A stretch of DNA of 33,893 nucleotides. Source: Parvularia atlantis (Eukaryota; Opisthokonta; Rotosphaerida). The stretch is taken from the NCBI GenBank assembly GCA_943704415.1, contig CALSCO010000277.1, positions 1 to 33,893 on the forward strand. Direction: 5' to 3'. The position numbers and the translations under genes were made by a program. Each line of letters starts with the position of its first letter. Position 1 is the first letter of the stretch. Below are positions 1 to 33,893 of this stretch, piece by piece. The notes below the pieces were generated by a model that did not search any database, was not told the origin of the DNA, and saw nothing but the letters and a program-made list of their open reading frames with translations.

Positions 1-1111
1 CCCCCAAGGCGACACCGACAGCACCAACGGCAAGGGCGCGGTCAAGCTGACCGACCTGACGCAGGACGACCAGCTGGACGACTACAACGTGCGCGTCGCG
101 CGTGTGCTCGCTGCACGCGGTGCGCTGACGGGTGCGTGGCAGTACGACATCAGCGTCAACGAGGGCAGCAACGAGCGCAAGGCCTTCACCGACGTGATCA
201 AGAAGGCGCTGCTGCCGGCCGTGCGCGGCAAGCTGGCCGAGCTCAATGCGGCCATCCTGCAGGGTGCGCGCACGCGTGCTGCATGCTTTGTGCCGCGCTG
301 TCTGACCGGTGTGGCTGTGCGCAGAGTACGGGCAAAAGGTCGTGCTGCCGACCAAGGAGCAGATCGCCGCGGCCGAGAAGGTGCGTACACACTCTCACAC
401 GGCCCCGTGAGCCTCACACGCTCTTGCACGGCAGGCGCAGGCGGAGAAGCACGCCGCGGCCGCGGCCGCCGCGCCGCAGCAGCAGGAGCAGGCTAAGGCG
501 GCCAAGACGTCGAGTGCGTCGTCATCGTCCGTGCGCACGAAGACGCTGCGCATGGAGGTCGACTTCCTGGCCGCGTGCGTGCTGCGCGCCTGCACCTCAG
601 CGCGCCTGTGGCTGACAACTGGGTGCTGGCGTGTAGCGCTGACGACCTCTACGACGCCCTCATGAACGTGCAGCGTGTGCAGATCTGGACGCAGGCGCAG
701 GCGCGCATCTCGCCCGAGGCCGGCGGCGAGCTCTCGCTGTTTGGCGGCAGCATCACGGGCACGACGCTCGAGGCGGTGCGTGCGGGCGCCGCCTCTGTAC
801 GCACCAAGCTGAGGCGCGCGCAACCAGGTCCGCGGCACCAAGATCAAGCAGAAGTGGCGCCTGTCGCAGTGGCCGTCGGGTGCGCTCGCTTGAGCGTCCG
901 CATGCATTGCCCCGTGCTGACCGTCGCCGGCGCAGGCCACCTGTCGACCGTGACGATGACGTTTGAGCAGGGCTCGTCGTCGACGCTGCTCAAGCTGATC
1001 CAAGAGGGCGTGCCCGAGGACCAGTTCGAGGCGACGGAGCAGAACTGGACGCGCTACTACTTTGATCGGATGAAAGGCGTCTTTGGCTGGGGCGTGCTGT
1101 CGGGCCTGTGA
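1..1111 (+). CDS. AHA1: Activator of Hsp90 ATPase (AHA1), 5' end outside window
   Basis: Co-chaperone that binds Hsp90 and stimulates its ATPase in the cytosol. Exons: <1-88, 143-263, 325-380, 435-574, 637-775, 828-879, 936-1111. The first three exons carry the end of the Aha1 N-terminal domain (an acidic stretch ending DDY, then FTDVIKKALLPAVRGKL). An Ala/Gln/Ser linker follows. The last exons form the C-terminal AHSA1 (START-like) domain: ADDLYDALMN, RVQIWTQ, GGSITG, KWRLSQWPSG, then ENWTRYYF-type ending QNWTRYYFDRMKGVFGWG. Joining 574 to 637 restores the conserved FLAAADDLYDAL segment, which fixes that intron. The first intron (89-142) is 54 nt with no stop, so retention would still translate. 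The start codon lies upstream of the window. Its stop is 49 bp from the stop of the convergent GPD1. Identity is secure from both domains. Confidence 0.93.
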
Positions 1112-1160
1112 CGGCATGCGCGTTTGGTAGGCAAAAAGCAGCACGCAAAGGAACGAAACG

Positions 1161-2688
1161 TCAGATGTGCCGCAGCAGCTGCGCTGGCGGCAGCCCCTCG
1201 AACGCGATGCGGTAGATGGCCGTGAACAGCGGGAAGCTGCCGTAGCGCGCGGTCAGCACCACTCGCGCGGGCCTCGCGTGGTCGCCGCGACGCACTCGTT
1301 CATCTTGCCCTTCTGCTGCAGGAACGTATACACCTCCTCGGCCGTGCCCACACCCTGCAGCTTCTGCCCGCGCAGCATCTCGGCCTCGAGCTGCTGGAAC
1401 GTCTGATCGCGCGCGCGGCGGTCGTGAGCGCCATCGCCACATCGCTCGAGCAGGCCGCGCTGCCACCTTGCCGGCCTTGACAAAGGCGCGCGAGACGCGG
1501 TAGTTGCGGCCATTGTAGCACGTCGTGATCAGGTCACCCACGCCGCAGCTCTCGAGGAACGTGCGCTCTGCGCGCGCGGCGCGGGCTCAGGCCGCCGTGG
1601 GCGCACAACGCCGCGCGCTCACACCCTTGATGCCGCCGTAGAACGTCTCGGCAAACTTCTTCATTTCCATCAGGCCGATGCGCATCACGGCGGCCTTCGT
1701 GTTGCCGCCCAGCCTGCGCGCGTAAGACGACTGTGAGCCGCAGCTGGAAGCAGTGCGCGGTGTGGCGCACTCGAGGCCGTCGACAAAGCCCGCGCCAAGC
1801 GCGACAACGTTCTTGAGCGCGCCGCACAGCTCTGGCCCGGCCACGTCCTCGACCACGCTCACGCGGAAGTAGTCGCGGTGGAAGAGCTTGCGGAAGAGCT
1901 CGCCTGTCTCGGCGTCGCTCGCGCCTGCAGCGGCGTCAGCGGCCGCGTGCTGCCCGCTCACGAGGGCAAGGCGCACCAATCGTCGTCTCGCAGAACTTTT
2001 CCTGCGCGACCTCGTCGGCCACGTTGGCGCCCATGAGCACCGAGACGCTGATGTTGAGGCTGTCGTGGATGATGTCTGAGATGAGCTGCAAGCCATCGCT
2101 CGTGTCGATGCCCTGTCGACACGGCCTCAGCGCTGCGAGCGGGCGCGGCGGGCGGGAGGCACCTTGATGAGCGAGATGGCCTTGGCGCTCGGCGTGAGGC
2201 GGCCCTTGAGCTGGTTCAGCAGGCCCTTGAGGAACTGCGAGCAGAGATAAGCCGGCAGCAGTCGCACGCCGCAGCATGGAGACGCGCGCGCCTGGTGCGG
2301 CACGACAAAGACGAGCACGGTCGCGCCCTCGACCGCCTTGGCGACGTCGGGCACGGCGACGATGTTCTCGGGCAGCTTGATGTCGGGCAGGTACCTTTGG
2401 CGCAGCCGTCAGCATCAAACACGCGAGCGCGAGCGCAATCGCCACAACGACGCACCGCACGTTCTCGTGCGTGAGGTTGATGATCTCGGTCAGCTTGCGG
2501 CCGTTGATGTTCTCCTCGTACACCCACATGTTGACGCGCTCGTCGAAGACGTGGCTGCCGGCCGTGTTCTGCCCGATGATGCGCGCGATGGCCGAGCCCC
2601 TGCGCGCCGCTGAGTTGCTTGCCGCACACACGGCGCGCGCGCACCAGTTGCCCGAGCCGAGGATGCACACACGCTCCTTGCGCACCAT
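1161..2688 (-). CDS. GPD1: NAD-dependent glycerol-3-phosphate dehydrogenase
   Basis: Reduces dihydroxyacetone phosphate to glycerol-3-phosphate (glycerol synthesis, redox balance, lipid precursor). Exons in coding order: 2645-2688, 2456-2599, 2292-2394, 2163-2234, 1977-2112, 1771-1924, 1625-1713, 1467-1567, 1296-1402, 1161-1236; 341 residues from ATG 2688. Visible: Rossmann motif [47 protein letters not shown] with a catalytic-type Lys, [16 protein letters not shown], the substrate-binding segment [14 protein letters not shown], and [14 protein letters not shown]. The fourth intron (2235-2291) needs a GC donor (CAG|GCGCGC) to restore PHQ-FLKG; it is in frame and stop-free. ATG 2688 gives the normal family length. 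The frame stays open upstream through a poly-Ala run to ATG 3021, so a longer form is possible (separate entry). Confidence 0.95.
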
Positions 2689-2695
2689 CGCCTCG

Positions 2696-2760
<65 letters not shown>

Positions 2761-3021
2761 CGCTGCTGCTGTGCCGGCGGATGCGGCGGCTGTGTGCGGC
2801 TGCAGGATGCTGCGGATGTGGCGGCGCGCGCGCGTCAGAGCTGGAGCGGGCTGCGGCGTCATGCGCGCCAGATCGCTCCCGCACCTCGCCAGCTGCGCCA
2901 TCCGCCGCTGCGCCGCCGCCCCGTCGCCGATCGTGCTGCTGCTGCTGCCGCTGTCGAAGCTGCTGCCGCTGTCGAAGCTGCTGCCGTCGAAGCTGCGCTG
3001 AAGGCAGCTGGACAAGCGCAT
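2689..3021 (-). other. Open N-terminal extension of GPD1 or its 5' leader
   Basis: This 333-nt stretch is open and in frame with GPD1 and contains in-frame ATGs at 3021, 2901 and 2862. It would add 111 residues: a tandem SSFDSGS-like Ser repeat, then an Arg-rich, acid-poor part (MAQLARCGSDLARM and ALTRARRHIRSIL) resembling a mitochondrial presequence, then poly-Ala encoded by the CAG repeat. Some GPD isoforms in yeast carry organelle-targeting leaders, so translation is plausible. It could equally be 5' UTR shared with the divergent glyoxalase gene, whose ATG lies 22 bp beyond 3021. An antisense plus-strand open frame through the repeat is judged a shadow. Confidence 0.4.
2697..2759. repeat. 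(CTG)21 trinucleotide microsatellite
   Basis: Twenty-one perfect CTG units on the plus strand (CAG on the minus strand), followed after TCG by more CTG units. If the GPD1 extension is translated, the minus strand reads it as poly-alanine (GCA). It sits just upstream of the conservative GPD1 start. Confidence 0.97.
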
Positions 3022-3043
3022 TCGGCGTCGACGTTCGAAAATC

Positions 3044-3479: not shown

Positions 3480-3509
3480 GCACACAATTGCACGCGCACA
3501 AGCACGCGC

Positions 3510-5061
3510 TCACAGCCGCGCCGGCGAGCGCACGATCACGTGGTTGTGGCTGATGTCTTGCAGGCGCGCGCAGCCTGCAGTGTCGCGTGTGCGTGTGTCA
3601 GGCGACTGACCGCTCGCGCCGCACGAGCCGCTGGCAGCGCACCGGCGAGGGTCATCGCCAGGTGCAGCTCCGTGTTGAGTGTCGCGAGCACGGACGCCAC
3701 GCCCGCCTGGCCCTGGTACACGAGGCCCCACAGCACCGGCCTGCCAATAAAGACCGCGCGGGCGCCGAGCGCGAGCGCCTTGAAGACAGACGTGCCTCTG
3801 CGCCGCGGTCACGCACCGCGGCGAGCGACAGGCGCCGGCGCACCGCCGCACGCCGCCGTCGACGTAGACCTCGACGCGCCCGTTGACCGCCGCGACGATC
3901 TCCGGCAGCATGTCAATCGACGCGAGCACGCCGTCCAGCTGACGCGCTGTCAGGGCCGCGTGAGCAGGCACACGAGCAAACAAATGGGCGGCGCACCGGC
4001 GTGGTTCGACACCCACACGGCGTCGACGCGGTGCTCGACAGCCAGCAGCGCGTCCTCGGCCGTCTGCACGCCCTTGACGACGATGGGCAGCTTGGTGAGC
4101 GAGCGCAGCCACGCGATGTCCTTCCACGTCAGGTTGCGGTCGATCTGACCCGCGACGTACGCCGCCAGGCCCGACTCCTGCAGCTTGTGTTAGGTGTGCG
4201 CAGCGGCCTAGCGTGCGGGCTTTCCTTGGCGCCGCCCGTGAACTTTTGCTTGTTCGCGTCGCCGACAAAGTTGGCCATGACGAGGTGCGGCGGCAGCGAG
4301 AAGCCGTTGCGCACGTCGTCTTCCTGCCGTCCGCGCGCGCGCGTCCGTCTTAGGCGCGGCGATCATTGTGCAGCAGCCGCACGCACGCGGCGCCCGAGCA
4401 TCGGCGCGTCGACTGTCAGCACGAGCGCCTTGTAGCCGGCGGCCTCGGCGCGGCGCACGACCGACGCCGTCAGCTCGCGGTCCTTGTACACGTACAGCTG
4501 CCGCGCGCGCGCGCCATGTTGAGCGCTGGCATGCGCGTCGCTGATCGGCGCACCTGGAACCAGCGCAGCCCGGCGGGCGCGGCCGCGGCGACGTCCTCGA
4601 GGCTCGTCGTGGCCCACGAGCTGAGCGTCATGAGCGTGCCGGCCTCGGCGCAGGCGCGCGCCGTCGCGAGCTCGCCGTCCGGGTGGGCCATGCGCTGCAT
4701 CGCGGTCGGCGCGACGAGCACGGGCGACGCGACCTGCACGCTGCGCCGTCAGCCGCCGCCCGCCCTCCAGGACGCGGCATCGCGCGCACCGGCAGGCCCA
4801 GCACGGTCGTGCGCACGTCGATCTCGGCCACGGGGCGCAGCACGCGCGGGCGCAGGCGGATGCGCACGAACGCATCGAGGTTGTCCTGGAGTGTCTGCTG
4901 ATCGCACGCGCCTGCGCCGTCCGCGCGTTAGCCCGGCCGATCGCGAGCCGTAACGCGCAAGAGCGCACGCACGCACCCGACGCGTAGTAGTCGTAGACGT
5001 ACTTGGGCAAGTGCTTCTTGGCGTGCGCCTCGAGGTCCCACAGATTGACGAGCGCGCTCAT
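3510..5061 (-). CDS. FMN-dependent 2-hydroxyacid (glycolate/lactate) oxidase
   Basis: Oxidises an alpha-hydroxy acid to the keto acid with FMN; peroxisomal or cytosolic in known relatives. Exons in coding order: 4977-5061, 4790-4911, 4554-4733, 4387-4497, about 4231-4323, about 3997-4183, 3844-3946, 3643-3797, 3510-3574; 366 residues. Family motifs: YDYYASG (active-site Tyr), [70 protein letters not shown] (FMN-binding Lys), VWVSNHAARQLDG (catalytic His and Arg), [22 protein letters not shown]. The usual NHGGRQLD reads NHAARQLD here. The intron near 4184-4230 has no GT donor; a GC donor at 4230 keeps the frame, so its borders are uncertain and it lies in the variable loop before the TWKDI segment. 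Start 5061 gives the normal N-terminus; another in-frame ATG lies at 5091. Confidence 0.9.
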
Positions 5062-5108
5062 CCTCGCCGCTATGTACACGCACTTGTGCAATCCGCCACG
5101 TCTGTCGC
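5062..5108. promoter_or_regulatory. 47-bp divergent spacer
   Basis: Only 47 bp separate the FMN oxidase ATG (minus) from the EngB GTPase ATG (plus). Both 5' UTRs and promoters must fit here or overlap the neighbouring gene. No TATA-like motif is obvious. Confidence 0.5.
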
Positions 5109-6632: not shown

Positions 6633-6729
6633 TACGGGCGCCCCTCAATAGCTCCACCTTCTGTTCCTTCTGACGCGAGACACAAAACGAACAACGCAAC
6701 AAGCAAAGGCCCTCAGCCCGCGCGCGCGC

Positions 6730-14895: not shown

Positions 14896-16980
14896 ATGCT
14901 AGGCGGGATGCTGGGCACGACGTCGCATCCGGTGCCCATCGCGCGCTCGGCGTCGTCGTCGGCGTCGGGCTCGGCGTCGGCGTCCACGTCGGCGTCGGCG
15001 TCGGCGTCGTCCACGGGGCTCGCCTTCGCGGTCGGCGCGCACGCGCTCGCGTCGTCGTCGCCGCCACTGCACGGCTTCCTGAGTGCGTCGAGCACGTGCG
15101 CGAGCGCGACTGGTGTGCTGACGGAGGCGCGCGCGCGCACAGACGCCACACCGTCGCCCGTGCGCATCCCGCAGGCGCCCGCGCCCGTGCGCACGTTCGC
15201 GGCGAGCGAGCAGCGCACCAAGGCACGCCGCCGCCGCTCCTATATGGCCGCTCACCGTGCACGGCGCCCGCAGGTGCTGCTGCTCGAGAACGTCAGCCCG
15301 ACCGCCGTCGAGCTGTTCACGAAGGCCGGCTACGACATCGACTTTGTCAAGGACTCGCTGCCGGACGCGCAGCTGATCGAGCGCATCAAGGACGTGCAGG
15401 CGATCGGCATCCGCAGCAAGACGAGCCTCACCGCGAGCGTCCTGCAGCACGCCAAGAACCTGGCCGTGATCGGGTGCTTCTGCATCGGCACGAACCAGGT
15501 GCGCAAGGGGCAGTGCAGTGCTCGGTGGCTGACGCGGCGCCCAGGTCGACCTCGACCAGGCGATGAAGCAGGGCGTGCCCGTATTCAACTCGCCCTTCAG
15601 TAACAGCCGCAGCGTCGGTACGCAATGCACGCAGGCCGCACGCCTTCACGCTTGCTGACACCGGCCGCGCGCACCGCCCAGCCGAGCTCACCATCGCCGA
15701 GATCGTCGCGCTCGCGCGCCAGCTCGGCGACAAGACGCACGAGACGCGACAGCTGACCTGGAACAGCGACGGCCCCGTTGCAACCGCCTCAGCCGCGGCC
15801 GGGGCAGACAGCGCGGCATCGACCGAACCGGCACGGCACCCGCGCCTCGAAGTGCGCGGCAAGGTGCTCGGCATCATTGGCTACGGGCACATCGGCTCAC
15901 AGCTGTCGGTGCTGGCCGAGTCGATGGGCATGCGCGTGCTCTTCTACGACATCCTCCCGATCATGCCACTCGGCACGGCGCGGCCGGTCGCCACGCTTGA
16001 GGTGCGGCCGGGGTGGGCGGCGCACTGCGTGGCGATGCTGACCGGGAGCGCGCCCACAGGACCTGCTGAAGGAGGCCAACTTTGTGACGATCCACGTGCC
16101 CGCCACGCCCGAGACGACCAACATGATCCGCGAGGAGCACCTGATGATGATGCGGCGCGGCTCGTACCTGATCAACAACGCGCGCGGGACGGTGGTGCGT
16201 GGCAGACACTCTGCGCGCTCGCCCGTCGCCGTTTCACCTGACGTCGCGCCTGCAGGTCGACATTGCCGCGCTGGCCCGCGCGCTGCGCAGCGGCCACCTC
16301 GCCGGCGCCGCGGTCGACGTGTACCCGAAGGAGCCCAAGGGCAACGGGCCAGGCTTCGTGACCGAGCTGCAGAACTGCCCCAACACGATCCTCACGCCGC
16401 ACATCGGTCTGCGCTGTCGCGCTCTGTATGTCGGCGCTCACGGCTCGTGCAGGCGGCTCGACCGAGGAGGCGCAGCGAGCGATCGGCGTGGAGGTTGCGA
16501 CGGCCATCATCCGGTGCGGCATTATGTCTTTGGCCGGTGAGTCCGCTGACGGCGGCGGCGGGCGGCAGGTACCTCAACGCGGGCAGCACGACGACGGCGG
16601 TCAACTTCCCCGAGGTCGAAGTGCGCAATCTCGACCCGGCCAAGACGAGCAACAAGACCGTGCGCATCCTCAACGTGCACGAAAACGTGCCCGGCGTGCT
16701 CAAGGTGCTGCCTGCTACTCGCGCGCGCCGAGTGGGCGTCGGCTGACTACGCTCGGCGTGCAGCAACTGAACAAGCACCTGTCGGCGTGGAACATTGAGA
16801 AGCAGATCTGCGAGTCGAACGACAAGGTGCGCGCGTGCGCTGCCCACCGCTTGGCTGAGCGCGCCGCAGATCTCGTACTTCGTGGCCGACATCACGTACA
16901 AGACTGAGGCGGACTTGCAGCAGCTCCAGGAGAAGATCAGCAAAATCCCCGAGAGCATCTGCACGCGGCTGCTGTACTGA
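14896..16980 (+). CDS. D-3-phosphoglycerate dehydrogenase (SER3/SerA type)
   Basis: First step of serine synthesis from 3-phosphoglycerate, cytosolic. Exons: 14896-15082, 15143-15498, 15545-15617, 15682-16001, 16060-16194, 16256-16406, 16453-16513, 16569-16704, 16764-16826, 16870-16980; 530 residues. Motifs: VLLLENVSPTAVELF, AIGIRSKTSLTASVL, VIGCFCIGTNQVDLDQAM, FNSPFSNSRSVAELTIAEIV, NAD site GIIGYGHIGSQLSVLAESMG, SYLINNARGTVVDI (catalytic Arg), PHIGGSTEEAQRAIG (catalytic His), and a C-terminal ACT domain (VRILNVHENVPGVLKQL ... ISYFVADI) that in relatives binds serine. Two oddities: about 28 extra low-complexity residues between LTWN and EVRGKVLG, and a Ser/Ala-rich N-terminal leader whose 60-nt segment 15083-15142 looks like an in-frame intron. 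ATG 15244 is an alternative start. Confidence 0.95.
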
Positions 16981-17026: not shown

Positions 17027-18460
17027 CTACACCTCACTGCGGCCCAGGTACATCATCAAGAACGCGAGCCAGCCGACCCTGTGCGGCGCGCGGTTGGCAC
17101 ACTGTCGCCGCGGTGGCACCGCAAGGCAGCGCACCCGGAGCCTTGGCTGTGGCGGCTGAAAAAGTCAAAGTCGCACGACAGCGCCAGGCCAATCAGCACT
17201 GCACGCTGCTCAATCGTCAGCGGCTCGCTCGGCGGCGGGCGCTCGGTGACTGCGCGACGTGTCGGCGGGGCTTTCCCGGCGCGGCGTGCCGCACCTTGCA
17301 CCGTGTCCGGCCCGGTCATCTCCATGCGCGGCGGGGGTATGAAGTGCAGCACGTACTCACCCGTGTCGGTGAAGATCTGCCTGGCGCGCTCAGCCCGGCG
17401 CAAGGCACCGTCGAGCACACGCACCTCACGCGCAAAGCCGACAAAGTTGCGGTCGACCACGGCGACGACCTGGCCGTGCTCGTTGCGCACCTCGAAGACC
17501 ATGCCGAGGAAGGGCGTGTCGACGGCGCCAAACTGCTGCTTGCTGCGCATGACGCGAGGTCTGCGTTGAGCGAAAACACGTAGCAGCCGCGCGCGCGACG
17601 CACTCGATGAACAGGTCGAAGCGTCGGCGCCACGGGTGCCAGCGGCGGTGCACCTCGCCGATGAGGTTGTTGTCGACGTCGAAGATCTGCGTGGTGCTGC
17701 GGGCATGCGTGGCTCGTCGGCCTGCGTGCGCGAGCAGGCGGTGCACGTCGCGCAACCTGCTGATGAGGTAGTACGGCCGCTTGACAAACAGCAGCGGGTT
17801 GCCGAACGCGTCGAGGATCGTCGCGCTGAACGCGCGGTGCAGCCCTGGCCGTGCGCGCGCGCAGCGCCGCGTCAGCCCAAAGGGAGGTGACGACGACGCG
17901 CCGGCGGCCGCACCGAGGAACTGGCGCCCGATGACGCGCCCGAGCGACGACTCCTCCGCGATGAAGCCGATGTTCTGCGTCCCGTCGTCAGCCGACCGTC
18001 GCGTCCCGCTCACGTCACGGGCCGCGCGCACACCTGGCCCGTCGCGATCTTGATCGCGTAGCGGTTGGCCTGCTCCCAGCCGAGGAAGACGTTGAGCATC
18101 TCGATCTGGCGCGCGATCACGAGCGCGGGCTGGTCCACGAGCCAGCCGTACTCGCCTTCGCCTCGTCAGTCGATCGACGTCAAGCACGTCCGTGCGCGCA
18201 CCCGTGTACTTGTAGTCGACGGGCGCGACCCAGCCGACGTCGTGCGCAGGCGGCGCCGTCGACGGAGGCGCCGGCGGAACGTTCTCGGCGGCGATCGGGG
18301 CGCGTGCGGCGGCGGGGCGGACCGGGCGGGCTGCGTTCACGCGTGAGCGGCGGGATCGGCGACGGCGGCAGTGGCGCGTACCGGCGGCCGCGCGCCGCAC
18401 CATCGTGCGCGCGGACAGGGCCGGCGAGGGCGCGCGCGCGAGGATGCGGCCCAGCAGCAT
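17027..18460 (-). CDS. Phospholipid scramblase family protein, AIM25-like, mitochondrial
   Basis: Scramblase-fold protein; fungal AIM25 relatives are mitochondrial. Exons in coding order: 18202-18460, 18034-18155, 17914-17974, 17747-17844, 17604-17686, 17425-17560, 17135-17376, 17027-17078; 350 residues. N-terminus is Arg/Ala-rich without acids (MLLGRILARAPSPALSARTM plus RR/RRRR), a good presequence. Body motifs: YGWLVDQPALVIARQIEMLN, LGWEQANRYAI, RVIGRQFLGLHRAFSATILD, NPLLFVKRPYYL, NNLIGEVHRRWHPWRRRFDL, TPFLGMVFEV, VDRNFVGFAREIFTDTGEYV, and the family ending IGLALSCDFDFFSRHS. Exon joins were set by these motifs. The ATG lies only 25 bp downstream of the stop of the co-oriented TBC gene. Lipid-flipping activity is not proven for this subfamily. 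Confidence 0.82.
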
Positions 18461-18485
18461 CGCTCTCAAGTAAGAAATGACACAA

Positions 18486-20662
18486 TCAATCGTCAAGCTG
18501 GAGGCCGCCGCCGCGCGCCTGCTGCGACTTGTGATACTCGCGGCGGAGCACGGCGAGGGCTGTGAGCGTGCGCGCACATCAGGCTGAAGGCGGCACAACG
18601 CAGCAGCGCACCCTGCGCCCGCCCAGGCATGCTCGTGTGCGTGAGGTTGATCAGGCGGATGACGGCGCGCACGAGCCGGTCGTCGTCGATCTCCTGCTTG
18701 GACATCTGCCCGAGGAATTCCATCATGCCCTCAAAGTCGAGGCTGAGCAGGTCGTCTGCGTGTGCGCCGTGAGCCTTGCGCACGCTCGCTGTGAGGACGC
18801 CGCACTCTGGAACATCTCGAGCACGGCCACGGCCACGAAGAAGAGCACGTCAAAGCCGTGCATCAGGAACACGTCCCAGATGCGCAGGCACGTGTGGAAC
18901 GGGAAGCCGAGGAAGATGGTCATGTACCACCGCGTCGCGTACGCGCTCGGGTGGATGTTGTGGTTCTTCTGCTCAGCCGGGGTGGCGCGGTCGTGAGTTC
19001 CCGTGCCGGCGTGCGCAAGGGGCGACGCACAAAGTGCTTGAACATCTTGGGCACGTGGAACTTGAGCATGCGCTCGTGCACGTAGAAGCCCTCCATCAGC
19101 ATCGGGAAGCCCGCGGCCCAGATGCCTGTTCGCGGTTGAGCGGCCGTGTGACACACACTGCTGGCGCGCGCACCCTTCAGCCGGAAGTTTTCGTGCGACA
19201 CCAGCTTATCCATGATCCAAAACGCCGTCTGCGCGCGTGTCAGAGAGGCAGGCCGTGCCACGGCGAGGGCGCACCTCCTCCTTGCAGTAGATGAGCAGGA
19301 ACGCGGCCACGGACGCCATGCCCTGGCAAAAGCCGACCTCGGGGTTGTAGTTGGCATACGCGCGCAGCACGTTGAACAGACGCTGCTGCCCTGCGCATCG
19401 CCGGCCGCGCGCATCAGTCAGACCCACAGCGTGCGCGCACGAAACGCGCCACCTGGCCCGTAGCGCTGCCGGTAGACGATGTGGTTGCGCAGCGTGCGGT
19501 TGATGTCGAGGTCGATCTGGTTCTCGTCGACCTCGGACGTGGGTTTGGCTAGCATGTCCTGTGCGCGCCCTCAGTCGTACACGCGGGGCATGCGAGGGAG
19601 CAGCCACACCTGGTACAGCCGCACTTGGCGCTGGTCGAGCTCGTCGGCCGCGCCGAGCGTCATCAGCAGCCACACCTTGAGCCGCCACGGGTTCGGGATG
19701 CCCTTGTACACGCGGCGGCGGAACTGCGTGCGGCCGGCCGTGAGCCCACCCGCGCGCGGGTCGACGACTGCTTACCTTCGGGTCGTTCTTGAGGTCGCCC
19801 ACCTTCACGTCCGCGCCCGAGACCATCTTGGCCCACTTGAGCGCGCGCTGGTTCTCGAGCTGCTCGGCACGGCGCCGCTCCGAACGCGACTCCTTGCCGC
19901 CCGACGCCTCGCCGGGCCTGCGTCAGCCCCGCGCGTGAGCAGCACGCGCATCAGGTGCAATCGGCGCACGCACCCGTCGCCGTCGTCGTCCAGAAAGCCG
20001 TAGCGGTCGGCGTGCGCGTACAGCGTGTTCTCGCTCTCGGGCGGCACGGGTGCGGCCTCGGTGTAGAGCGCGACGAGGCCGCGGCCGGCGCTCGCAAACT
20101 CGCCTGACCGCGCGCTGTCAAACAACAACAACAACAACAACAAAGCGTGCGTAAAGGCGCGCACCGAGGTTGCCGCCCGACGTCGAGCGCGTGACGGCGA
20201 CGGCGGGCAGCGGCGATCCGGGCAGGCGCGGCCGCCGCAGGTCCTGCCGCGTGCGTTGCGCGTGCGCGTGGGTGAGCCGTGGCCGCAAGAAGAAGGATGC
20301 AGCGCGTGCCTTGAGCGCGTTCTTGCTCGCCTCGAACTTGATCGCGTTGGCGAGCTTGGCGCGCGTGGCGTCGTCGTCGATGCCCATCTCGACCTGCGCC
20401 CGCGCGCATCACTCTCAGCCGCCCTCCCCGCCGCAACGGTGCAAGCAGCACCGACCATAAGCTCGTCGGTCAAATGCGGCAGGCACTCGCCATCGATGCC
20501 GTGCTCGCTGAACAGATCGCGCAGCCGCGCGAGCCCTGCGATCCGCCGTCAATAGTGCACCAAGCAGGCAGCAGGCAGCCACCGCGCACCCTCGTTGCCG
20601 AGCCACAGCGCCACCTCGTCCGTCGACCACAGCCGCAGCGGCTTCTTGGCCGCGAACGACAT
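18486..20662 (-). CDS. SAM-TBC domain protein (probable Rab GTPase-activating protein)
   Basis: Likely Rab-GAP in membrane traffic. Exons in coding order: 20590-20662, 20456-20535, 20165-20393, 19974-20103, 19776-19917, 19610-19723, 19453-19558, 19275-19390, 19174-19228, 19031-19125, 18806-18968, 18612-18755, 18486-18559; 506 residues. Residues about 10-66 form a SAM domain ([51 protein letters not shown]). The TBC domain starts near residue 219 ([17 protein letters not shown]) and has the Arg-finger motif IDLDINRT and the Gln-finger region EVGFCQGM (FCQ rather than YCQ), then [36 protein letters not shown] 66-nt stop-free GC-AG candidate intron (20244-20309) may split exon 3. Intron 20394-20455 has a weak GTCGGT donor; intron 20104-20164 contains a (TTG)n run. 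Confidence 0.88.
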
Positions 20663-20987: not shown

Positions 20988-23818
20988 ATGTTCTGGCGCT
21001 TCGGGTTCCACACGCAGTCGGCGGTGGACGCGCTGCTGGACCGCGACCAGTTCGAGCTGGAGGAGCTGCTGGACGAGGAGGAGCTGCTGCAGGAGTGCAA
21101 GGCCCACAACAAGAAGCTGCTCGACTTCCTCTGCAAGGCCGGCGTGCTCGAGGCCCTCCTCGCCTACATCACCGACGACCCCGCGCCCGACCTGCCCGAC
21201 GAGTCCAAGTACAAGTGCGTCGTGCTTCTGCGCTCGTCCTTTCCCCCCGTCTCACTCCTTTCAAAAGGTACCCGATGATCGCCTGCGAGGTGCTCTGCTC
21301 CGACATCCTCGCCGTCTACGACTCGCTCTTCCTGAACGAGGAGCTGCTCGAGGTGCGGCGCCGCGGCCGCCGTCGGGCACACGCGACGCTGACGCGTGCA
21401 CAGGCGTTCTGGAAGTTCCTCGACAAGCCCGCGCCGCTCAACCCGCTCCAGGGCTCGTTCTTCATCCGCGTGTTCTCGATGCTGCTGCAGCGCAAGATCC
21501 CGCAGGTGCTCGCGCGCACACGTGTGTCCGGCGAGGACGGGGGCCTGACGCCGCGCGCCCGGTCAGACGCTCGCGTTCATCAAGAAGCAGCCGAACCCGG
21601 TCGACAGCATGCTCGCGCATATCGGCCTGTCGGCGATGATGGACCTGATCATGAAGATCACGTCGTGCGAGGAGGTCAAGGAGGGCGAGGGCATTGTGCA
21701 GGTGCGCGCGTCGCCGACTGGCGCGTGGCGGCTCAAAAAAAAAAACGCCGGCAGTGGCTCGCCGACAACCACCTCGTCGACAAGCTCGCGCTGAAGATCG
21801 ACGGCGACAGCACGCCCGAGGTGAGCGCGCACGCGCCGCGGGACGGCGGCGGCCAGAGTGGGTGCTGACGCCGAATCGCAGGACAACAGCAACGCGTCGC
21901 AGCTGCTGATCGACATCCTCAACACGTCGCACGCGTTCGGGGCGAGCAAGAACATCATGCTTGAGCGCATCAAGAGGTGTGCGCGGTGCTCGGCGCCAGT
22001 GCGCACTGACGCCCCGCCGCAGCAAAGCGACGGTTGAGACGATCGTCAAGGGCATGCTCAAGCCCGACTCGCCCAACTTCACGGCCTCCATGTACCACGG
22101 CCTGGCCGTGTTCATCGAGCTTGTGCAGAAATACGTCGTGTGCGTGGCGCGGCCCGCGCTGCTCGCGGCCGCGGCTGACGCGCGCCGCCTGCAGGAGCAC
22201 GCAGGTACAAGACGGCACGCCCGCGGTCGACGTGAGCGACATGGTCGCGGTCGTTGTGCCGCACCTGCCGCAGATGCACGCCATCATGGAGAAGCCCTAC
22301 GTGGCGGTGCGCGCGCACGCCGTGCGCTGCGGCCGCGGCGCTGACGTGGCGTGCCGCGCAGCCTGGAGAGCTGGCCAACACCACCTTCCCGCAGTCCAAG
22401 CCGCTGGGGTTGCTGAGGCTACGGGTGCGCTGCGGGCCGCGCGGGCGAACAAGCACGCACGTGCGCTCACCGTACCCGCGCAGATCGTCGAGTTTTTCTC
22501 GGCGATGCTGCACACAAACAACCAGGCGGTGTACGACGCGTTCGTGAAGCTGCAGGTGCTGCCGTACTTTGTGGTGCGCGCGCGCCGCTGCTGTGCGTCG
22601 GCCCTGGGCAGCCGCTCAGGCCGTGCCGTGCCGCGCCGCAGAACCTCTTCTTCACGTACCCGCAGCACAACTTTTTGCACACGCTCGTGCAGGACATGGT
22701 CATCAAGACGCTCACGGCTGACCAGAAGATCGCCGGGCCGCTGGCCGCGTCGGTGCGCCTCCTGCGGTTGCTCTGTGTGTGTGCATGTGTGCGCTGACGG
22801 GCGCGCAGCTGCTCAAGGATGCGCGGCTGACGGACCGCATCGCCGAGGCGGCCGTTCATAACGAGGGCGAGATGTGCGTGTGAGCGCGGGGGCTGCGAGC
22901 ATGCGCTGATCGCGTTCGCTGTAGCGTCCGGGAGCGCGGGTCGCACCGCGGGTACATGGGGCACATAACGTTGATAGCTGCCGACCTCGTCAAGTACGCC
23001 GAGGCCGAGGGCCTGGACACAGACGTCAAGGGTGCGTGCTGGTTGCTGTGCTGTGTCTTGGCAGCGGCTGACACGAGCTGTGCGCGCAGCCGTGTTTGAC
23101 CGGGACGCGTGGAAGGAGTACGTCAACAAGACGCTCAAGGAAACGCAGGATCGCGACTCGAAGGCACGTCGCTGCGTAGCGGGCTGTGCGCATTGCATTG
23201 CTCACACGCGCACGCAGCCGCTGGGCGGGCACCGACCGGTCGCACCGGCCGAGCCCGAGGGCATAAACAACTTCTCGAGCAGCAGCGACGACCTGTCGAA
23301 CCAGGACCCGGTGCGTGCACGCGTGCTCGCTCGACGCAGGCCTGACGCCGCCGCGGCACGCAGTTTGCGCGCTTCATGTCGCACCAGGCTGTGGCGCACA
23401 TCCCGCAGAAGCTCGCCGACGACGACGATGACGACGACGACGACGACAACGGGATGGACCAGTGCGTTTTTTGCGCGCTTGTGCGGCGCGGCGTGGCGCG
23501 TGCTGACGGCGCCGGGGTGCAGGGACTTTGCCAAGAGCGTGCACATGTTCAACCCGTTCGACAAGCACCGGTCACAAGAGCCGGACGAGGAGGACAAGGC
23601 ACGCGCTTGCAGGCGGTGTGGCGCGGCGAGCGCTGACATGCACGCGCGCGCGCGCGCGCAGTACTTTTACAGCGGCGGACTGGACGAGCAGCAAAAGTCG
23701 TTCGCCAACTTTGCCAACTTTGACCAGGTGCGCGGGCGCGCGTGCTGGCCGTGCTCTGGGGCGGCGACTGATGCGCGCATGTCCATGTACGACGACAAGA
23801 AGCTAGCGGGCGCGAACG
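20988..23818 (+). CDS. SIT4-associated / PP6 regulatory subunit (SAPS domain), 3' end lost in gap
   Basis: Regulatory partner of PP2A-like phosphatases (yeast Sit4, animal PP6). Eighteen exons read: 20988-21214, 21268-21352, 21404-21505, 21567-21701, 21755-21820, 21882-21976, 22023-22137, 22205-22306, 22362-22424, 22484-22573, 22642-22752, 22809-22873, 22925-23031, 23090-23163, 23218-23310, 23364-23461, 23523-23598, 23662-23727; 590 residues before sequence becomes uncertain. Motifs: FWRFGFHTQSAVDALLD, ELLDEEELLQECKAHNKKLL, YPMIACEVLCSDI, FWKFLDKPAPLNPLQGSFF, KKQPNPVDSMLAHIGLSAMM, LLIDILNTSHAFG, KPLGLLRLRIVEFFSAML, FFTYPQHNFLHTLVQDM, RGYMGHITLIAADLVKYAE, ARFMSHQAVAHIPQK. A run of ten Asp follows. 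Two introns (23164-23217, 23599-23661) use AAG|GCACG donors. The next intron starts at 23728; the last exon, and so the C-terminus, is broken by the gap. Confidence 0.9.
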
Positions 23819-28242: not shown

Positions 28243-30881
28243 ATGCTCTCGGTGGCGTGGAGCAAGCCGCGCGCGGGCGCCGGCCGCGGCAAGGTCGTGT
28301 ACGACGCGGAGGACATGCGCGAGGTGAACGACGACCGCGTCACGCTGCTCGGCGCATCGGCGAGCGCGGCGTCGTCCGACACGGCGTCGGCGGCGTCGGC
28401 GGCGTCGGCGGGGGGCGACGTCGAGTTGGGCGTGCGCAAGGTGCGGCGGCATCGCGATGTCAGGTCGCTTGATGACACGCGGCGGCAGTACCGCACGCTC
28501 GAGTGGCTGCCGGGCTGGGCGCGCGCGCTGATGGTCGTGGTAGGGCTGGGCATGCTTGCGGCGATGCTGTGGTGTGCGCGCGCCTGCCGCGTGGTGGTCG
28601 CGCTGACGGGCCCTGGGCGAAAGGTACACGATCACGTATACGTTCGCGAGCCGCGCGCGCAAGAACGTCATCTTCCTCATCAGCGACGGCTTCGGCCCGG
28701 CCAGCCAGACGATGGCGCGGCAGTACGTGCAGAGCACGCAGGGTGCGTGCGTGTTTGTGTGCGTGTGCTTGTGCGTGTGCTTGTGCGTGACGAGGCGAGC
28801 GGGCGCAGGCAAGCCGATGGACTTTCAGCTGCCGCTCGACACGATCCTCGTCGGCTCGTCGCGCACGCGGTCGACGTACGCGCGACCAGCGCATGTGCGC
28901 TTGTGCTACGCCGATCCCTTGACTGCCCTTGCGCAGGGACTCGCTCGTGACCGACTCGGCCGCGGGCGCGACGGCATTCTCGTGCGGGCTCAAGTCGTAC
29001 AACGGGGCGATCGCTGTCGACAGCCGCCAGGTGTGCTCAGCTGCCGGCTGGTACGCGTGACCTGATGCGCCGCGTGGCAGCTGCCGTGCGCGACCGTGCT
29101 CGAGGGTCTGCACGTCAGCGGCTACCGCACGGGCCTCGGTGCGCACACTCAGCCGCAGTCCTGCGCGCTTGCGGCTGACCCGCGCGGCACAGTGGCCACG
29201 AGTCGCATCACGCACGCCACGCCGGCGTCGTTTGCGTCACACGTGGTCGACCGCGACCTCGAGAACGACATCGCCGTGCAGGAGATCGGCAACACGCCGC
29301 TCGGCGTGTGCGTCCTGTGCTGTCATGGCGAGGGCGAGCTGACGCGCTTGTTCGCAGGCGCCCGGATATCCTGTTTGGCGGCGGCCGGCGCCACTTTATC
29401 CCCAAGTCGCAGTCGGGCAGCTCTCGCACGGGTGCACTATGCGGGTCGCGGCTGTTCCGCTGCTGACACGGGCGCGCAGACGACGTGGACGTGCTCAAGG
29501 ACGCGCAGAGCAAGGGCTACCGGGTGATCACGACGCGGAGCGAGTTTGACGCGCTGCCGCGCGACGCCACGGGGTACGTGCGGGCGCGTTTGTGCATGGG
29601 TGCGCGCGCGGCTGAGCCGTGCTGCGAACCAGCGCGCCGACGCTGGCCGTGTTCACCCTGTCGGATATGACGTACGAGATCGACCGCGACCCGGCCGTCG
29701 AGCCGTCGCTGCTGGAGATGGCCAAGGCCGGTGCGTGCTGTCGACGCAAGAGGGGCTGACTGGCTCGCGCCTGACGCGGCGGGCGGCGCAGCGATCGACA
29801 TCCTCGAGGCGCAGGTTGCGGCGAGCTCGTCCGACGGCTTCTTCCTGATGATCGAGGGTAGCCGCATCGGTGCGCACAAAGGGGGATGTGCGGGAACGCA
29901 CCGACGACGACGAGCGCAGACCACGCCGCGCACGACAACGACCCCGCGACACACCTGGGCGAGATCCTCATGTACAACGAGGTGATCGAGTACGTGCGCG
30001 CGTACATTGACGCCCACCCAGACACGATCATGGTCTCGGTGCGCTCCACTGCGCGTCGTGGGTGCCGTGCGCTGACGCCCGGCGCGCGCAGACGTCGGAC
30101 CACGAGTGCGGCGGCATGACGGTGGCGCGGCAGGTGCAGGTGGCGTACCCGGACTACCTGTGGTACCCGGCGGTGCTCTCGGGCGTGCACAACTCAACCT
30201 CGGCGCTGTCCAAGTGCGTGTCGGACGCGCGCGTGAGCGGCGAAGGGCGCTGACGTGCTCGTGCGCCCCCAAGGGCGATCCGCGCGTACGCGGCGGGCGG
30301 CGGCAGCGACCTCGAGGCGTACATCACGCAGGTGGTCGTGCGCGACATGGGCATCACGGACATGAGCGACGCCGAGCTGCAGACGCTCATGAAGCTCGCG
30401 CTCAGCAGCGACTCCAACGCGCAGCAGGTGCGCTCTCGCGCTCACATTGCTGTAGTTGTGCGCTCATCCGCCGCAAGAACCTGGTGTACGCGCTCGGCAT
30501 TATGGAGAGCACGCGCGCACAGCTCGGGTGGACCACGCACGGCCACTCGGGCGTCGACGTCAACCTGTACGCGTACGGCTCGGTGCGTCCGTGCCGCACG
30601 CCGCCAATGCCTGGGCTGACGTGGCGCGCCCGCAGGAGAGCGTGATTGCGCCTCTGCGCGGCAACCACGAGAACACCGATGTCGGCCAGTTTTTCATCAG
30701 CTACTTTGACGTGGACCTCGCGCCGCTGACCGAGCGCCTCATGTATGCGCGGCGCGGTGTGGGCTGTGTGGTGTTTGGACTCACTGCCCGGCGCAGCAAC
30801 GCGCGTAGCGAGGGCAAGCGAGGCGCGGCAGCAGCAGCGGGCCGTACGACGGACGACGTGCACCACGCGCGGCGGGTGTGA
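28243..30881 (+). CDS. Vacuolar-type alkaline phosphatase (PHO8-like)
   Basis: Membrane-anchored metal-dependent phosphomonoesterase. Exons: 28243-28571, 28624-28742, 28809-28875, 28937-29030, 29081-29138, 29193-29307, 29358-29431, 29480-29573, 29633-29730, 29792-29869, 29920-30038, 30092-30213, 30274-30427, 30478-30582, 30636-30881; 623 residues. A cytosolic N-terminal tail of about 90 residues precedes one TM helix (ALMVVVGLGMLAAMLW). Active-site motifs in order: NVIFLISDGFGPAS (metal Asp), SLVTDSAAGATAFSCGLKSY (nucleophile Ser), RITHATPASFASHVVDRD, DILFGGGRRHFIP, FFLMIEGSRIDHAAHDNDPA, VSTSDHECGG, GWTTHGHSGVDVNLYAYGS, GNHENTDVGQF. TSDHECGG replaces the yeast TSDHETGG. The C-terminus after LTERLMYA is unclear: read straight it stops at 30881, but an acceptor-like CAG near 30796 could shorten it. 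Confidence 0.94.
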
Positions 30882-30888
30882 TCTGTTG

Positions 30889-30914
30889 GTGTGTGTGTGT
30901 GTGTGTGTGTGTGT
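30889..30914. repeat. (GT)13 microsatellite between convergent genes
   Basis: Perfect GT dinucleotide run in the 47-bp spacer between the alkaline phosphatase and RING-PHD stops. Confidence 0.95.
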
Positions 30915-30928
30915 TACAACATGTGCGT

Positions 30929-32340
30929 TCAGTGGTGCGGTAGAAGACGCTGGGCTTCGGCGCGCAGCGTGTCTGCGTCAAGCGAGGCGGGCGCTAACAC
31001 GGCGAGCTGCTCGGCGGCGCGGCGTGCGAGCTCCTTGAATCGCTCGCGCGAAAGCCTCCCGCTGTCGTAGTGCGGCTGGAGGAGCTCGCGCACGACGTCG
31101 GCGCAACGCGCGATGTGTGCCTTGCTGGGCGGCGTGGCGGCTGGGGCGGGTGGCGCCTCAGCCGACGGGTACAAGAGCTGCGGGACGATGGGCGCGGGCG
31201 GCGGCGCAGGCGGCGGCGTACGCGGTCGCGGCCGCTTGATGAGCGGGTGCGCCGTGTCGATGTAGGCGGCCGCAGGTCGTCGTGCGGGCTGCTGCTGCTG
31301 CTGCTGCGAGTGCGGGTGCGGGTGCGGTTGCTGCGTGCGCACAAACTGTGCCATCTGCCGGTAGAGCGCGTCGATCTTGAGCAGGCGCATGCGCTCGATC
31401 GCGGCCGTGCGCGAGCGTCCGGATCTCGGCAGCGCGCCCGTCCCGCCGCGAGTGCGGGGCGCGACGGGCGACGGCGCGGGTGAGGGCGGAGGCGACGGCT
31501 TGACCGACTCTGGCGGTGACGGCGCGGGCGAGCGCCGTGCAAGCCGGTCGAGCGCTTGCGTGCGCCGGGCCGTGCTGTCGGCGACGGTCGCGTTGTACTG
31601 CGCCCGCGTGGCCGAGACGGGTGCCGGTGCCGGTCCCGGTCCCGGTGCTGGTGGAGGCGGCGCAGTGGTGGTGGCGGCCGCACGCGCGGCCAGAACGTGC
31701 GGCGTGCACTCGGCGCAGAACCACGAGCCGGCCGGGACGCGCCCGAGCGGCGGTTCAAGGCAGGCGATGTGCGTGCCGCGGTCGCAGCGATCGCAGAGGA
31801 CGATCTCGTTGGGCCGGTCGCCGTTGCCGCACACCTGCGCGGCTCGACGGTCACACCATGCCACGTCGCTCGCACGCGCACCGTGCAGTTGTACCGCGGG
31901 TCGTCGTCGTCGTCGTCGTCCTCCTCCTCCTCCTCGCCCGCCGCCGCTGCTGCTGCCGCCGCCGCCTCCTCGTCCTCGCCCTGCCGCCGCGGCGCGACCG
32001 GGATGCGCCGCAGCACGCGTCCGCCGGGGCGGTCGGTGACGAGCAGCTCGTAAAAGGCGTTGCGATCGAGTGGACACGACGTCTCGACCTGCTCGCGCGC
32101 ACCCGATCAGCCACGACGAGCGACGACGAGCGACGGACGCGCCTCGGCCCAGGCGGCGATGCAGCGCAGATGAAAGGCGTGCACGCGCGCGCACTCGACC
32201 ATCGCGACATCGCCGTCGAGCTCGGCGAGGCAGATCGGACTGCCGTGGTGCGTCACGGGCGCGCGTAGGCAGGCAGCGCACGCGGCGCACCAGGCGAGGC
32301 GCTCGGCCGCAGCGCTCATGCGCTCGACCGTGTCACGCAT
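30929..32340 (-). CDS. RING-PHD protein (PHRF1-like)
   Basis: Probable nuclear E3 ligase/chromatin reader; animal PHRF1 has the same RING-then-PHD order. Exons in coding order: 32291-32340, 32143-32239, 31882-32088, 30929-31834; 419 residues. Splicing 32291 to 32239 creates the first RING pair (LACPICLAELDGDVAM). CARVHAFHLRCIAAW follows, then VETSCPLDR after intron 32089-32142. That intron needs a GC donor (GAG|GCGCGT), which gives the ten-residue spacing seen in RINGs of the CILEWSKNANSCPVDR type. Next come an Ala/Glu/Asp run and a PHD finger: NCTVCGNGDRPNEIVLCDRC, DRGTHIACLEPPLGRVPAGS, WFCAEC (C4HC3 complete). The tail is Pro/Ser/Gln-rich and ends with a charged helix (FKELARRAAEQLAVL). ATG 32319 is an alternative start. 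Confidence 0.82.
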
Positions 32341-32374
32341 TTCCCATCAGCGGGTCCCGCGCAAAACGGAAAGC
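32341..32374. promoter_or_regulatory. 34-bp divergent spacer, RING-PHD / S-formylglutathione hydrolase
   Basis: Just 34 bp lie between two outward-pointing ATG codons. Promoter elements must overlap coding sequence, or the true starts lie further inside one gene (the RING-PHD ATG at 32319 would widen it to 55 bp). Confidence 0.5.
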
Positions 32375-33651
32375 ATGACGCCGCTGCGCACGCTCTCGTC
32401 GTCGTCGCGCTGCTTCGGCGGCGACCTCGTCAAGTTCACGCACGCCGTGCGCCGCCCGCGCGCTGGCCCCGCGCACGCTGCCGCCGGAGCTGATGCCGCC
32501 GATGCGGGGCTGCAGTCGAGCACCATCGGCCTCGATATGAACCTCAACGTGTTCTTCCCGAAGCCGCTGGCCGAGCTGCAGGCGGCGGGCGCGCGCGTGC
32601 CGGTGCGGCCGGGCCTTCATCGATCGCGCGGCGGCGCTGACCGGCGCGGCGGTGTCTCGCAGTGGCTGCTGTACCTCTCGGGCCTGACGTGCACCGAGGG
32701 TGCGCGCCGCCTCGCGCACGTCCGCGGCACGCCGGCCTCACCCGATCGGCAGACAACGTGATGCAAAAGTCGGGCCTGCAGCGCGCCGCCGCGCGTCTCG
32801 GCATCGCCGTCGTCGCGCCCGACACGAGCCCGCGTGCGCTTACCCCCGCTCGGGTGCGCGCGTGCCCGTGCCTGATCGCGGCGCGTAGGCAAGACGGGCG
32901 TCGAGGGCGCGGACGCGTCGTGGGACTTTGGCACGGGTGAGTGTGCGCGCTCGCTGCCTCGCTACCGCCCGCTCACGCGCGGCACAGGCGCTGGCTTCTA
33001 CCTCAACGCGACGCAGGCGCCGTGGAGCAAGCACTGGCGCATGTACGACTACCTCGTCGACGAGCTGTACGCGCTGCTGCCGGCCGAGCTCCCGCTCGAC
33101 GGCGCGCGCGTGTCGATCTTTGGCCACTCGATGGGCGGCCTCGGCGCGCTCGTGCTCGGCCTGCGCAACCCGGACAAGTTCAAGGCGCGCGCGCCCCGTC
33201 GCTGCATCCCGCGCTGTTCTCATTGCCCGCTGCGCATCGCAGTCGGTCTCGGCCTTTGCGCCAATGGCCCACCCGAGCGCCTGCAAGATCGGCCAGAAGG
33301 CGTTTGCGGGCTACCTCGGCGCGGACAGCACCGAGGCCTGGAAGCAGTACGACCCGACCGAGCTCGTCAGCGCCGGCTACCGCGGTCCGGAGCGGCACCT
33401 GCTGATCGACCAAGGCGCCGAAGACGGCTTCTACAAGGACGCAACGCTGCTGCCGGACGACTTTGTGCAGGCGTGTGCGCAGGGCGACGTCGCGCTACAG
33501 TACCGCCTGCACCCGGGCTACGGTGCGCGACCCCATGTCACGCGCTCACGGTGGCTCATGCACGCACACGCATATGCCCGAAGACCACAGCTACTACTTT
33601 GTCGCGAGCTTCATCGACGAGCACATCGAGCACCACGCCAAGTGGCTGTGA
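32375..33651 (+). CDS. S-formylglutathione hydrolase (esterase D)
   Basis: Serine esterase of formaldehyde detoxification: hydrolyses S-formylglutathione to formate and glutathione. Exons: 32375-32446, 32516-32602, 32663-32699, 32753-32833, 32889-32936, 32988-33184, 33243-33522, 33584-33651; 289 residues, close to the family's 280-290. Motifs: [31 protein letters not shown] (oxyanion region), [40 protein letters not shown], nucleophile elbow [35 protein letters not shown], catalytic Asp in [12 protein letters not shown], catalytic His in [15 protein letters not shown]. The intron at 33185-33242 uses a GC donor (AAG|GCGCGC); its removal joins DKFK to SVSAFAP, matching the family's YKSVSAFAP. 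The intron at 32937 has the window's rare GTGAGT donor. The last intron ends in AAG. Confidence 0.95.
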
Positions 33652-33711
33652 GTCGCTGCCGCTGTGTGGCTGTTTGGCGGCTTGAGCGCTGCTGGTGTTG
33701 ACAGGGTCGAC

Positions 33712-33893
33712 TTAACCTCGAGCGCGGCCAGGCCCGCCGGCGTCGTGCGGGAGCATGAAGTACGAGCCGTACCAGTGCGTCGCGACACCGCCGAAGCCGG
33801 GCGCCGAGCCGAACGTCGCCACCGCCGCGGCCTCAGCCGCCTCGAGCGCGGCCGAGCCGTAGTTCCAGAACGAGGCCCAGTCGGGGGCGTAGC
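33712..33893 (-). CDS. Partial open frame at right edge, unidentified
   Basis: A minus-strand frame is open from the window edge to a TAA at 33712-33714, about 59 codons, too short to judge. It reads YAPDWASFWNYGSAALEAAE, then a Gly/Phe-rich part and THWYGSYFMLP. Aromatic-rich composition and the alternating strand pattern make a convergent partner of the S-formylglutathione hydrolase gene plausible. I do not recognise the family, and a final intron may alter the C-terminus. Confidence 0.3.
   Translation of the reverse strand, partial: YAPDWASFWNYGSAALEAAEAAAVATFGSAPGFGGVATHWYGSYFMLPHDAGGPGRARG

Follow-up and report, generated by a model that had tools for sequence, protein, structure and literature searches.

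A GTGCGY 5' splice-site consensus alongside canonical U1 and U6 genes in Parvularia atlantis

Contig CALSCO010000277.1 of the Parvularia atlantis assembly GCA_943704415.1 (16.25 Mb in 616 contigs) raises a simple question: why do its introns tend to begin with GTGCGY in place of the normal GTRAGT? The whole contig, 33,893 bases at about 70% guanine plus cytosine (GC), is the stretch analysed here and is called the window below. A first-pass annotation had reported that nearly all of some 147 hand-modelled introns start with GTGCGT, GTGCGC or GTGCGG, and had offered two explanations: erosion of the sites by GC bias with tolerance on the part of U1, or compensating changes in the U1 or U6 small nuclear RNA (snRNA). 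As an observation on predicted introns, the shifted 5' splice-site consensus is confirmed. The U1 and U6 genes that were read are canonical, and the base that sets these donors apart, C at position +4, looks to be preferred and not merely tolerated.

Donor sites in the window and in a wider sample

Introns were predicted with a self-trained, two-strand gene finder that takes every GT as an equal donor and every AG as an equal acceptor, and is blind to the donor past its first two bases. It places 151 introns in 17 genes of the window, about 9 per gene, and their donors read GTGCGC in 52 cases, GTGCGT in 37 and GTGCGG in 16, together 105 (70%). The consensus named in the first-pass annotation is therefore upheld, while its "nearly all" is too strong. 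The three canonical-looking donors that it had singled out were recovered independently by the finder, and the position of one of them, the GTGAGT at 32937, was also set by homology alignment. Nor does a normal GTRAGT return in the other contigs sampled: the shift persists when 10-kb stretches, 20 in all and taken from 11 other contigs, are added to the window (together about 234 kb of the 16.25 Mb). The finder, in a run that penalised GC and GA donors, placed 927 introns in this wider sample, with a median length of 58 nucleotides (nt) and with 862 GT, 60 GC and 5 GA donors. The GT donors have G at +3 (frequency.84), C at +4 (.77, against.04 for A), G at +5 (.79) and C or T at +6 (.48 and.28). 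The departure had been placed at +3 and +4; the +4 half of that claim stands, and +6 can loosely be added, but +3 drops out since G is found there in GTGCGY and GTGAGT alike. The string GTGCG occurs at 508 of 745 donors, versus 231 of 1527 GTs inside introns, 470 of 7197 exon GTs and 2808 of 27105 GTs on both strands of the sample.

Junctions were also placed by spliced protein-to-DNA alignment with the PDB homologues of 8 genes, using a script that requires only a GT, GC, GA or AT donor and an AG acceptor. With a threshold of at least 8 identical residues around the junction, 49 of 58 passed and 9 were dropped. The supported junctions carry G at +3 in 42, C at +4 in 41 (T in 4, A in 2, G in 2) and G at +5 in 44; 32 of them read GTGCGC, GTGCGT or GTGCGG, and GT donors number 44 and GC donors 5. 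Over all 58 the +4 base is C in 48, T in 4, A in 4 and G in 2. The window holds 27 of the supported junctions (Table 1), 22 of them with C at +4. The finder chose the same donor position at 41 of the 49 and differs from homology at 12 of the 58. Both donor sets thus show the trait of the GTGCGT class, in which C predominates at +4 and G at +3 and +5.

The introns also have the features of the U2 type: GT(GC)-AG ends, branch-point-like motifs, CAG acceptors, and reading frames restored by homology in the 8 genes. CTGAC is enriched 5.9-fold in introns (208 of 621 contain it) and CTCAC 5.2-fold, and the median distance from motif to acceptor is about 17 nt. Judging from sequence, and as part of the explanation developed below, in which we have moderate confidence, the window introns would be ordinary short spliceosomal introns with a shifted 5' splice-site consensus. 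The enrichment of CTCAC is close to that of CTGAC, which suggests two branch-point forms. A further regularity is that T at +6 avoids G at -1 (odds ratio 0.36, p 6e-8); this matches the trade-off between exon and intron positions described for two 5' splice-site classes (PMC11732430; here as elsewhere, what is attributed to a cited paper holds for the portion of it consulted).

Composition and preference at +4

How much of the C at +4 would the genome supply without any help from splicing? From the wider sample, 621 GT introns with a length of 40-90 nt and a CAG end were selected, and the N of GTGNG was compared between donors and two backgrounds. Inside introns (n=424) it is C in 54.5%, T in 34.2%, G in 7.5% and A in 3.8%; on both strands of the sample (n=4658) it is C in 60.3%, T in 18.4%, A in 12.9% and G in 8.4%. 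At GTGNG donors it is C in 443 of 490 (90.4%), with p < 1e-49 against either background. Measured against the intron and sample backgrounds, respectively, C stands at 1.66 and 1.50, T at 0.21 and 0.39, A at 0.38 and 0.11, and G at 0.14 and 0.12, and G is the rarest base among these donors (5 of 490). Composition accounts for C at +4 only partly, as the genome favours C there anyway and the donors exceed that background. A falls below both backgrounds, so its scarcity goes beyond dilution by GC, and the donors show no preference for it.

The GC-AG introns offer a discriminating test. Since a C at +2 forfeits one pair with U1, such sites should gain strength elsewhere. Of the 60 GC donors, 42 belong to introns of 40-90 nt. 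A stands at +3 in 22 of these and in 23 of the 621 GT donors (odds ratio 28.6, p 1.4e-17), and an AG closes the exon at 62% of GC donors versus 24% of GT donors. At +4, 36 of the 42 have C and none has A; over all 60 the counts are C 44, G 8, T 8 and A 0. If C at +4 were a mismatch that is simply put up with, A should come back at +4 as it does at +3. It does not, and the prediction of tolerance fails.

Small nuclear RNAs, rival explanations and known systems

The snRNA genes of the assembly were located and read. One U1 gene lies above the cut-off (88.1 bits), and its 5' end, AUACUUACCUG, is canonical; a second U1 match, at 13 bits, lies below. The one U6 gene (63.7 bits) reads GAUACAGAGAAG, with a canonical ACAGAG. 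U2 with GUAGUA, U4, and U5 with the loop CGCCUUUUACUA are present as well. From the first look, 41 of 149 U1 candidates and 47 of 492 U6 candidates were scored, and these include no second U1 or U6 above the cut-off; in the genes read, no changed base was found at U1 position 5 or U6 A43. The duplex predicted for pairing to the 5' end of U1 under plain RNA parameters has an energy of -13.3 kcal/mol for GUGAGU, -12.5 for GUGGGU, -8.9 for GUGCGU, -8.8 for GUGUGU and -6.8 for GUGCGC. A C at +4 costs about 4 kcal/mol, so it was not chosen for U1 pairing, and the near-equality of GUGUGU and GUGCGU leaves U1 pairing without an explanation for C over U.

The compensating U1 or U6 base opposite +4 that the first-pass annotation had proposed has a precedent as an idea, snRNA changes having been named as possibly worth exploring for the similar donors of Ostreococcus (PMC2483917). 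What was left as a possibility there could be read directly here, and for this one genome the answer is that no compensation is seen: both genes are canonical, with one copy each above the cut-off. We consider such a base very improbable, unless a divergent second U1 or U6 is missing from the assembly or sits among the candidates left unscored, or a base is changed by post-transcriptional editing. Loss of a factor that acts at +4 would be another route. A METTL16 gene is present in the assembly, in a 473-residue frame that matches PF05971 at 181 bits, has the NPPF motif and finds human METTL16 as its best PDB match (166.9 bits); another PF05971 match is weak (25 bits). An SNRNP27 domain is present too (52.1 bits), with a methionine within RQFMNRRGG that we take to be Met141 of SNRNP27K. 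This residue has been associated with changes at +4, and in Saccharomycotina switches from A to U at +4 track the loss of METTL16 or SNRNP27K while U1 and U6 stay invariant (PMC10581693). The likeness lies in the position and in the invariant snRNAs; the difference is that loss in yeasts goes with U at +4, whereas here both genes are retained and +4 is C, with T below background. Loss of either factor was rejected as the cause because both genes were found, and we regard it as a highly unlikely origin of the shift, if slightly less so than snRNA compensation. Exon matches to LUC7 were found on two contigs and are not used as support.

Far more weight attaches to neutral erosion, by which GC-biased mutation replaced the A at +4 by C, U1 and U6 tolerate the mismatch, and C enjoys no preference. 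The GTGNG context already holds 54-60% C and 4-13% A, the window is about 70% GC, the observed/expected ratio of CpG is 1.2-1.35 at the loci examined, and the same consensus and plentiful GC donors are met in other GC-rich genomes as far as the cited papers describe them. Against it stand the excess of C over matched background, the weak GC donors that gain A at +3 and an exon AG and no A at +4, and the rarity of G at +4, which is as GC-rich as C and would wobble with U1. The GC push proposed in the first-pass annotation is thereby borne out, and mere tolerance is not; we think neutral erosion doubtful as the full account, with perhaps a minor share of the probability. Recent copying of a mobile introner element, with a donor inherited and not selected, is suggested as the source of the introns by the resemblance to the GYGCGT donors of Micromonas introners (PMC3879977). 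The interiors of 819 of the 927 introns (40-120 nt) were compared all against all, with a first-order Markov control, and no large family appeared. At E < 0.001, 118 pairs shared 235 matching pieces, versus 31 pieces in the control, and 13 pairs, involving 22 of the 819 introns, shared a piece of at least 35 nt at 80% (control 0). Introner descent was rejected for this sample, in which some simple sequence is shared but nothing like an introner family, and we give it a very small probability, below that of a compensating snRNA base. An artefact of gene modelling, finally, could draw on GTGCG being common in GC-rich sequence (10% of sample GTs continue in this way) and on the junctions where finder and homology part; the homology-placed junctions yield the same logo, which makes this the least probable origin of all.

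The explanation that we consider probable, with moderate confidence in it as a whole, is that GC bias moved +4 to C, that C is now preferred, and that the snRNAs are canonical. A GC-directed bias would first have shifted +4 from A to C, the G-N-G context of the genome being mostly pyrimidine and above all C, and the spliceosome would by now actively prefer that C. The introns would be read by a single canonical set of U1, U2, U4, U5 and U6, with U1 pairing at +1, +2, +3 (a wobble), +5, partly +6 and the exon G, and the mismatch at +4 may be offset by the short intron, the CTGAC or CTCAC branch-like motif and the CAG acceptor. A true spliceosomal preference for C+4 with no gene-encoded U1 or U6 base behind it is, taken by itself, a tentative proposal to which we give well below even weight. 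Once composition is allowed for, C ranks far ahead of T, A and G, an order that would best fit a G-like partner, which reads C in preference to U. One candidate is U6 G44, which might pair with C+4 while the adjacent A43 is extruded and the C42-G+5 and A41-Y+6 pairs are kept; the plain duplex prediction did not select this register. Other candidates are an inosine in place of U6 A43 and a protein that contacts and reads C+4. If A43 were unmethylated, U should be the favoured base at +4, and T is below background here.

Several observations weigh against a preference for C at +4. One Ostreococcus nucleus holds both GTGCGTG and GTRNGT introns, so one spliceosome can accept both (PMC2483917). The plain RNA duplex with U6 GAUACAGAGAAG prefers U to C at +4 (GUGUGU -3.6, GUGCGU -1.2), and U6 pairing in that model does not account for C. 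The +4 base shows no trend with intron GC (p 0.99, 623 introns), a weak test as the GC of a 50-nt intron is mostly sampling noise. Donors with C at +4 more often have G at +5 (odds ratio 9.6) and also T at +6 (odds ratio 2.5), a pattern to which donors misplaced by the finder could give rise. Homology placed 5 GC donors, of which 4 have C at +4 and 1 has A, the latter a GCCAAG of uncertain placement. The background was itself estimated from sequence, and a context-specific mutation bias could mimic preference; all junctions, too, are sequence inferences.

GTGCGT donors are a class already known, and what is added here is an intron-dense genome, probably outside the green algae, in which both the snRNAs and the factors acting at +4 could be read. 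In Ostreococcus lucimarinus, introns outside chromosome 2 have a GTGCGTG donor, an ACTGAC/GACTGACG branch point and a preference for CGCAG acceptors, and those of chromosome 2, half of which is involved, prefer GTRNGT (PMC2483917). The GTGCG-type donor, the CTGAC-type branch point and the CAG-type acceptor are shared with the present introns; the alga is a green one and intron-poor outside chromosome 2, unlike the intron-dense genome here, and ACTGAC is found in 87% of its introns outside that chromosome, a much larger share than that of CTGAC given above (PMC2483917). Canonical introns of Micromonas have an AG|GTGCGT donor and an NCTGAC branch point, and its introners form two classes with GYGCGT donors, GC donors being frequent in IE-A1 (PMC3879977). 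Donor, branch point and GC donors are thus alike in Micromonas and Parvularia; Micromonas differs in its introner families and in a branch point 43-52 bp from the acceptor, as compared with the median of about 17 nt here (PMC3879977). GC-AG introns form a high fraction in the GC-rich genomes of Aureococcus (39.6%), Micromonas pusilla and Chlorella, and the fraction in our sample (60 of 927 by the finder, 5 of 49 by homology) is lower than that of Aureococcus (PMC3033335). A motif search for fungal stwintrons accepts GTGCGT as one of many donors, not as a consensus (PMC9024468). Our literature search, with most subscription journals outside its reach, found no report of GTGCGY as an opisthokont consensus. 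The EF1A of the assembly carries an insertion, which we take to be the opisthokont marker; the protein aligns with human EF1A save for one gap of a single residue, and archaeal EF1A align shorter. Animal and yeast proteins are included among its 13 PDB matches, with no plant or algal EF1A among the 13. These sequence comparisons suggest that the GTGCGT-class donors here and in Mamiellophyceae may have arisen by convergence, not by common green-algal descent.

If C at +4 is indeed preferred, GC-rich lineages such as Parvularia atlantis, Ostreococcus and Micromonas would have converged on a second docking mode of the 5' splice site, with METTL16 retained here. Current models connect splice-site evolution at +4 with SNRNP27K and with the methylation of U6 by METTL16; a genome that has C at +4, canonical U1 and U6 and both genes is a counter-case, in which the presence of these genes alone does not fix the +4 base. 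There is a practical side as well, since in such genomes a gene finder trained on GTRAGT would probably put many introns in the wrong place.

The insert in the U6 gene and other features of the window

The sole U6 gene found is itself interrupted, by a 48-nt insert (GTTGCG...AGTCGTT) at L002:1560-1607 on the plus strand (G000:C142:8879-8926). It sits exactly between the A and the G of the catalytic AGC triad, presumably A53/G54 by human U6 numbering. Two placements of its boundaries restore the triad, and neither has GT-AG ends. The contiguous U6 can form an 8-bp stem I with the U4 of the same assembly (-8.5 kcal/mol), and predicted co-folding gives stems I and II; the insert abolishes this stem I in the prediction, leaving the U4 strand a site of just 5 bp (-7.0). 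As U4 complementarity fits the contiguous form, the mature U6 should lack the insert. Modelled in this way, the insert is possibly a non-canonical intron; an assembly error, or an intact U6 copy left unassembled, is also possible. Introns in U6 genes are known (PMC5832005). Hand inspection found no bulge-helix-bulge geometry at the insert, and the gene with the insert included does not fold with unusual stability (z -0.79). Tani and Ohshima (1989) and Canzler (2016) reportedly dealt with such introns. No relatives of the insert were found in viral_contigs, and no second copy was reported in the genome. An exact 21-mer of it in a contig labelled Muribaculaceae was taken as chance, because there was no Rfam match at the gathering score. 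Unusual tRNA introns could not serve for comparison, as ARAGORN (bacterial code setting) found no tRNA genes in 25 loci (L002, L003, L007-L026, L030-L032; 200 kb of genome included). Within the insert a B-box-like site, GTGCGAGCC (L002:1591-1599, plus strand), has one mismatch to GWTCRANNC, which we take to be the B-box motif; with 15 such sites per 3,162 bases on that strand, it may be there by chance.

Table 1. Introns of the window placed by protein homology (identical/compared residues around the junction) or, in the last two rows, by the gene finder
Gene	Position	Strand	Donor	Support	Remark
GPD1	2600..2644	-	GTGCGC	homology 12/15	
GPD1	2395..2455	-	GTGCGT	homology 11/15	
GPD1	2235..2291	-	GCGCGC	homology 9/16	GC-AG; finder instead GTGCCG, 12 bases upstream
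GPD1	2113..2162	-	GTGCCT	homology 9/15	
GPD1	1925..1976	-	GTGCGC	homology 9/15	
GPD1	1714..1770	-	GTGCGC	homology 12/15	
GPD1	1568..1624	-	GTGTGA	homology 9/14	+4 T
GPD1	1403..1466	-	GTGGCA	homology 8/16	+4 G
GPD1	1237..1295	-	GTGCGT	homology 9/15	
Hydroxyacid oxidase	4912..4976	-	GTGCGT	homology 9/15	
Hydroxyacid oxidase	4498..4553	-	GTGCGC	homology 12/16	
Hydroxyacid oxidase	4324..4386	-	GTGCGT	homology 11/16	
Hydroxyacid oxidase	4178..4230	-	GCCAAG	homology 9/15	+4 A; less certain placement; finder differs
Hydroxyacid oxidase	3947..3996	-	GTGCGC	homology 11/15	
Hydroxyacid oxidase	3798..3843	-	GTGCGC	homology 11/15	finder differs
PGDH	15499..15544	+	GTGCGC	homology 12/16	
PGDH	15618..15681	+	GTACGC	homology 12/15	finder differs
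PGDH	16002..16059	+	GTGCGG	homology 8/16	
PGDH	16195..16255	+	GTGCGT	homology 10/16	
PGDH	16407..16452	+	GTCTGC	homology 13/15	+4 T
PGDH	16514..16568	+	GTGCGG	homology 8/15	
PGDH	16705..16763	+	GTGCTG	homology 10/16	
S-formylglutathione hydrolase	32700..32752	+	GTGCGC	homology 11/15	
S-formylglutathione hydrolase	32834..32888	+	GTGCGC	homology 8/15	
S-formylglutathione hydrolase	32937..32987	+	GTGAGT	homology 12/15	canonical; in first-pass annotation
S-formylglutathione hydrolase	33185..33242	+	GCGCGC	homology 12/16	GC-AG
S-formylglutathione hydrolase	33523..33583	+	GTGCGC	homology 9/15	
Gene at 17027-20662	19724..19775	-	GTAAGC	gene finder	canonical-looking; in first-pass annotation
SAPS-domain gene	21821..21881	+	GTGAGC	gene finder	canonical-looking; Pfam PF04499 in predicted protein; in first-pass annotation

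A Pfam scan of 10 predicted proteins of the window matched 9 of them, to AHA1, NAD-glycerol-3-phosphate dehydrogenase, FMN-dependent dehydrogenase, SH3, 2-hydroxyacid dehydrogenase, SAPS, ankyrin repeats, alkaline phosphatase and esterase. A long run of a CTG-type triplet repeat, at 2696-2770, adjoins the start of the GPD1 gene. Outside the window, a homoisocitrate dehydrogenase-like gene (L019:5430-6918, minus strand), with 3ty3 as its best PDB match, presumably hints at the alpha-aminoadipate pathway of lysine.

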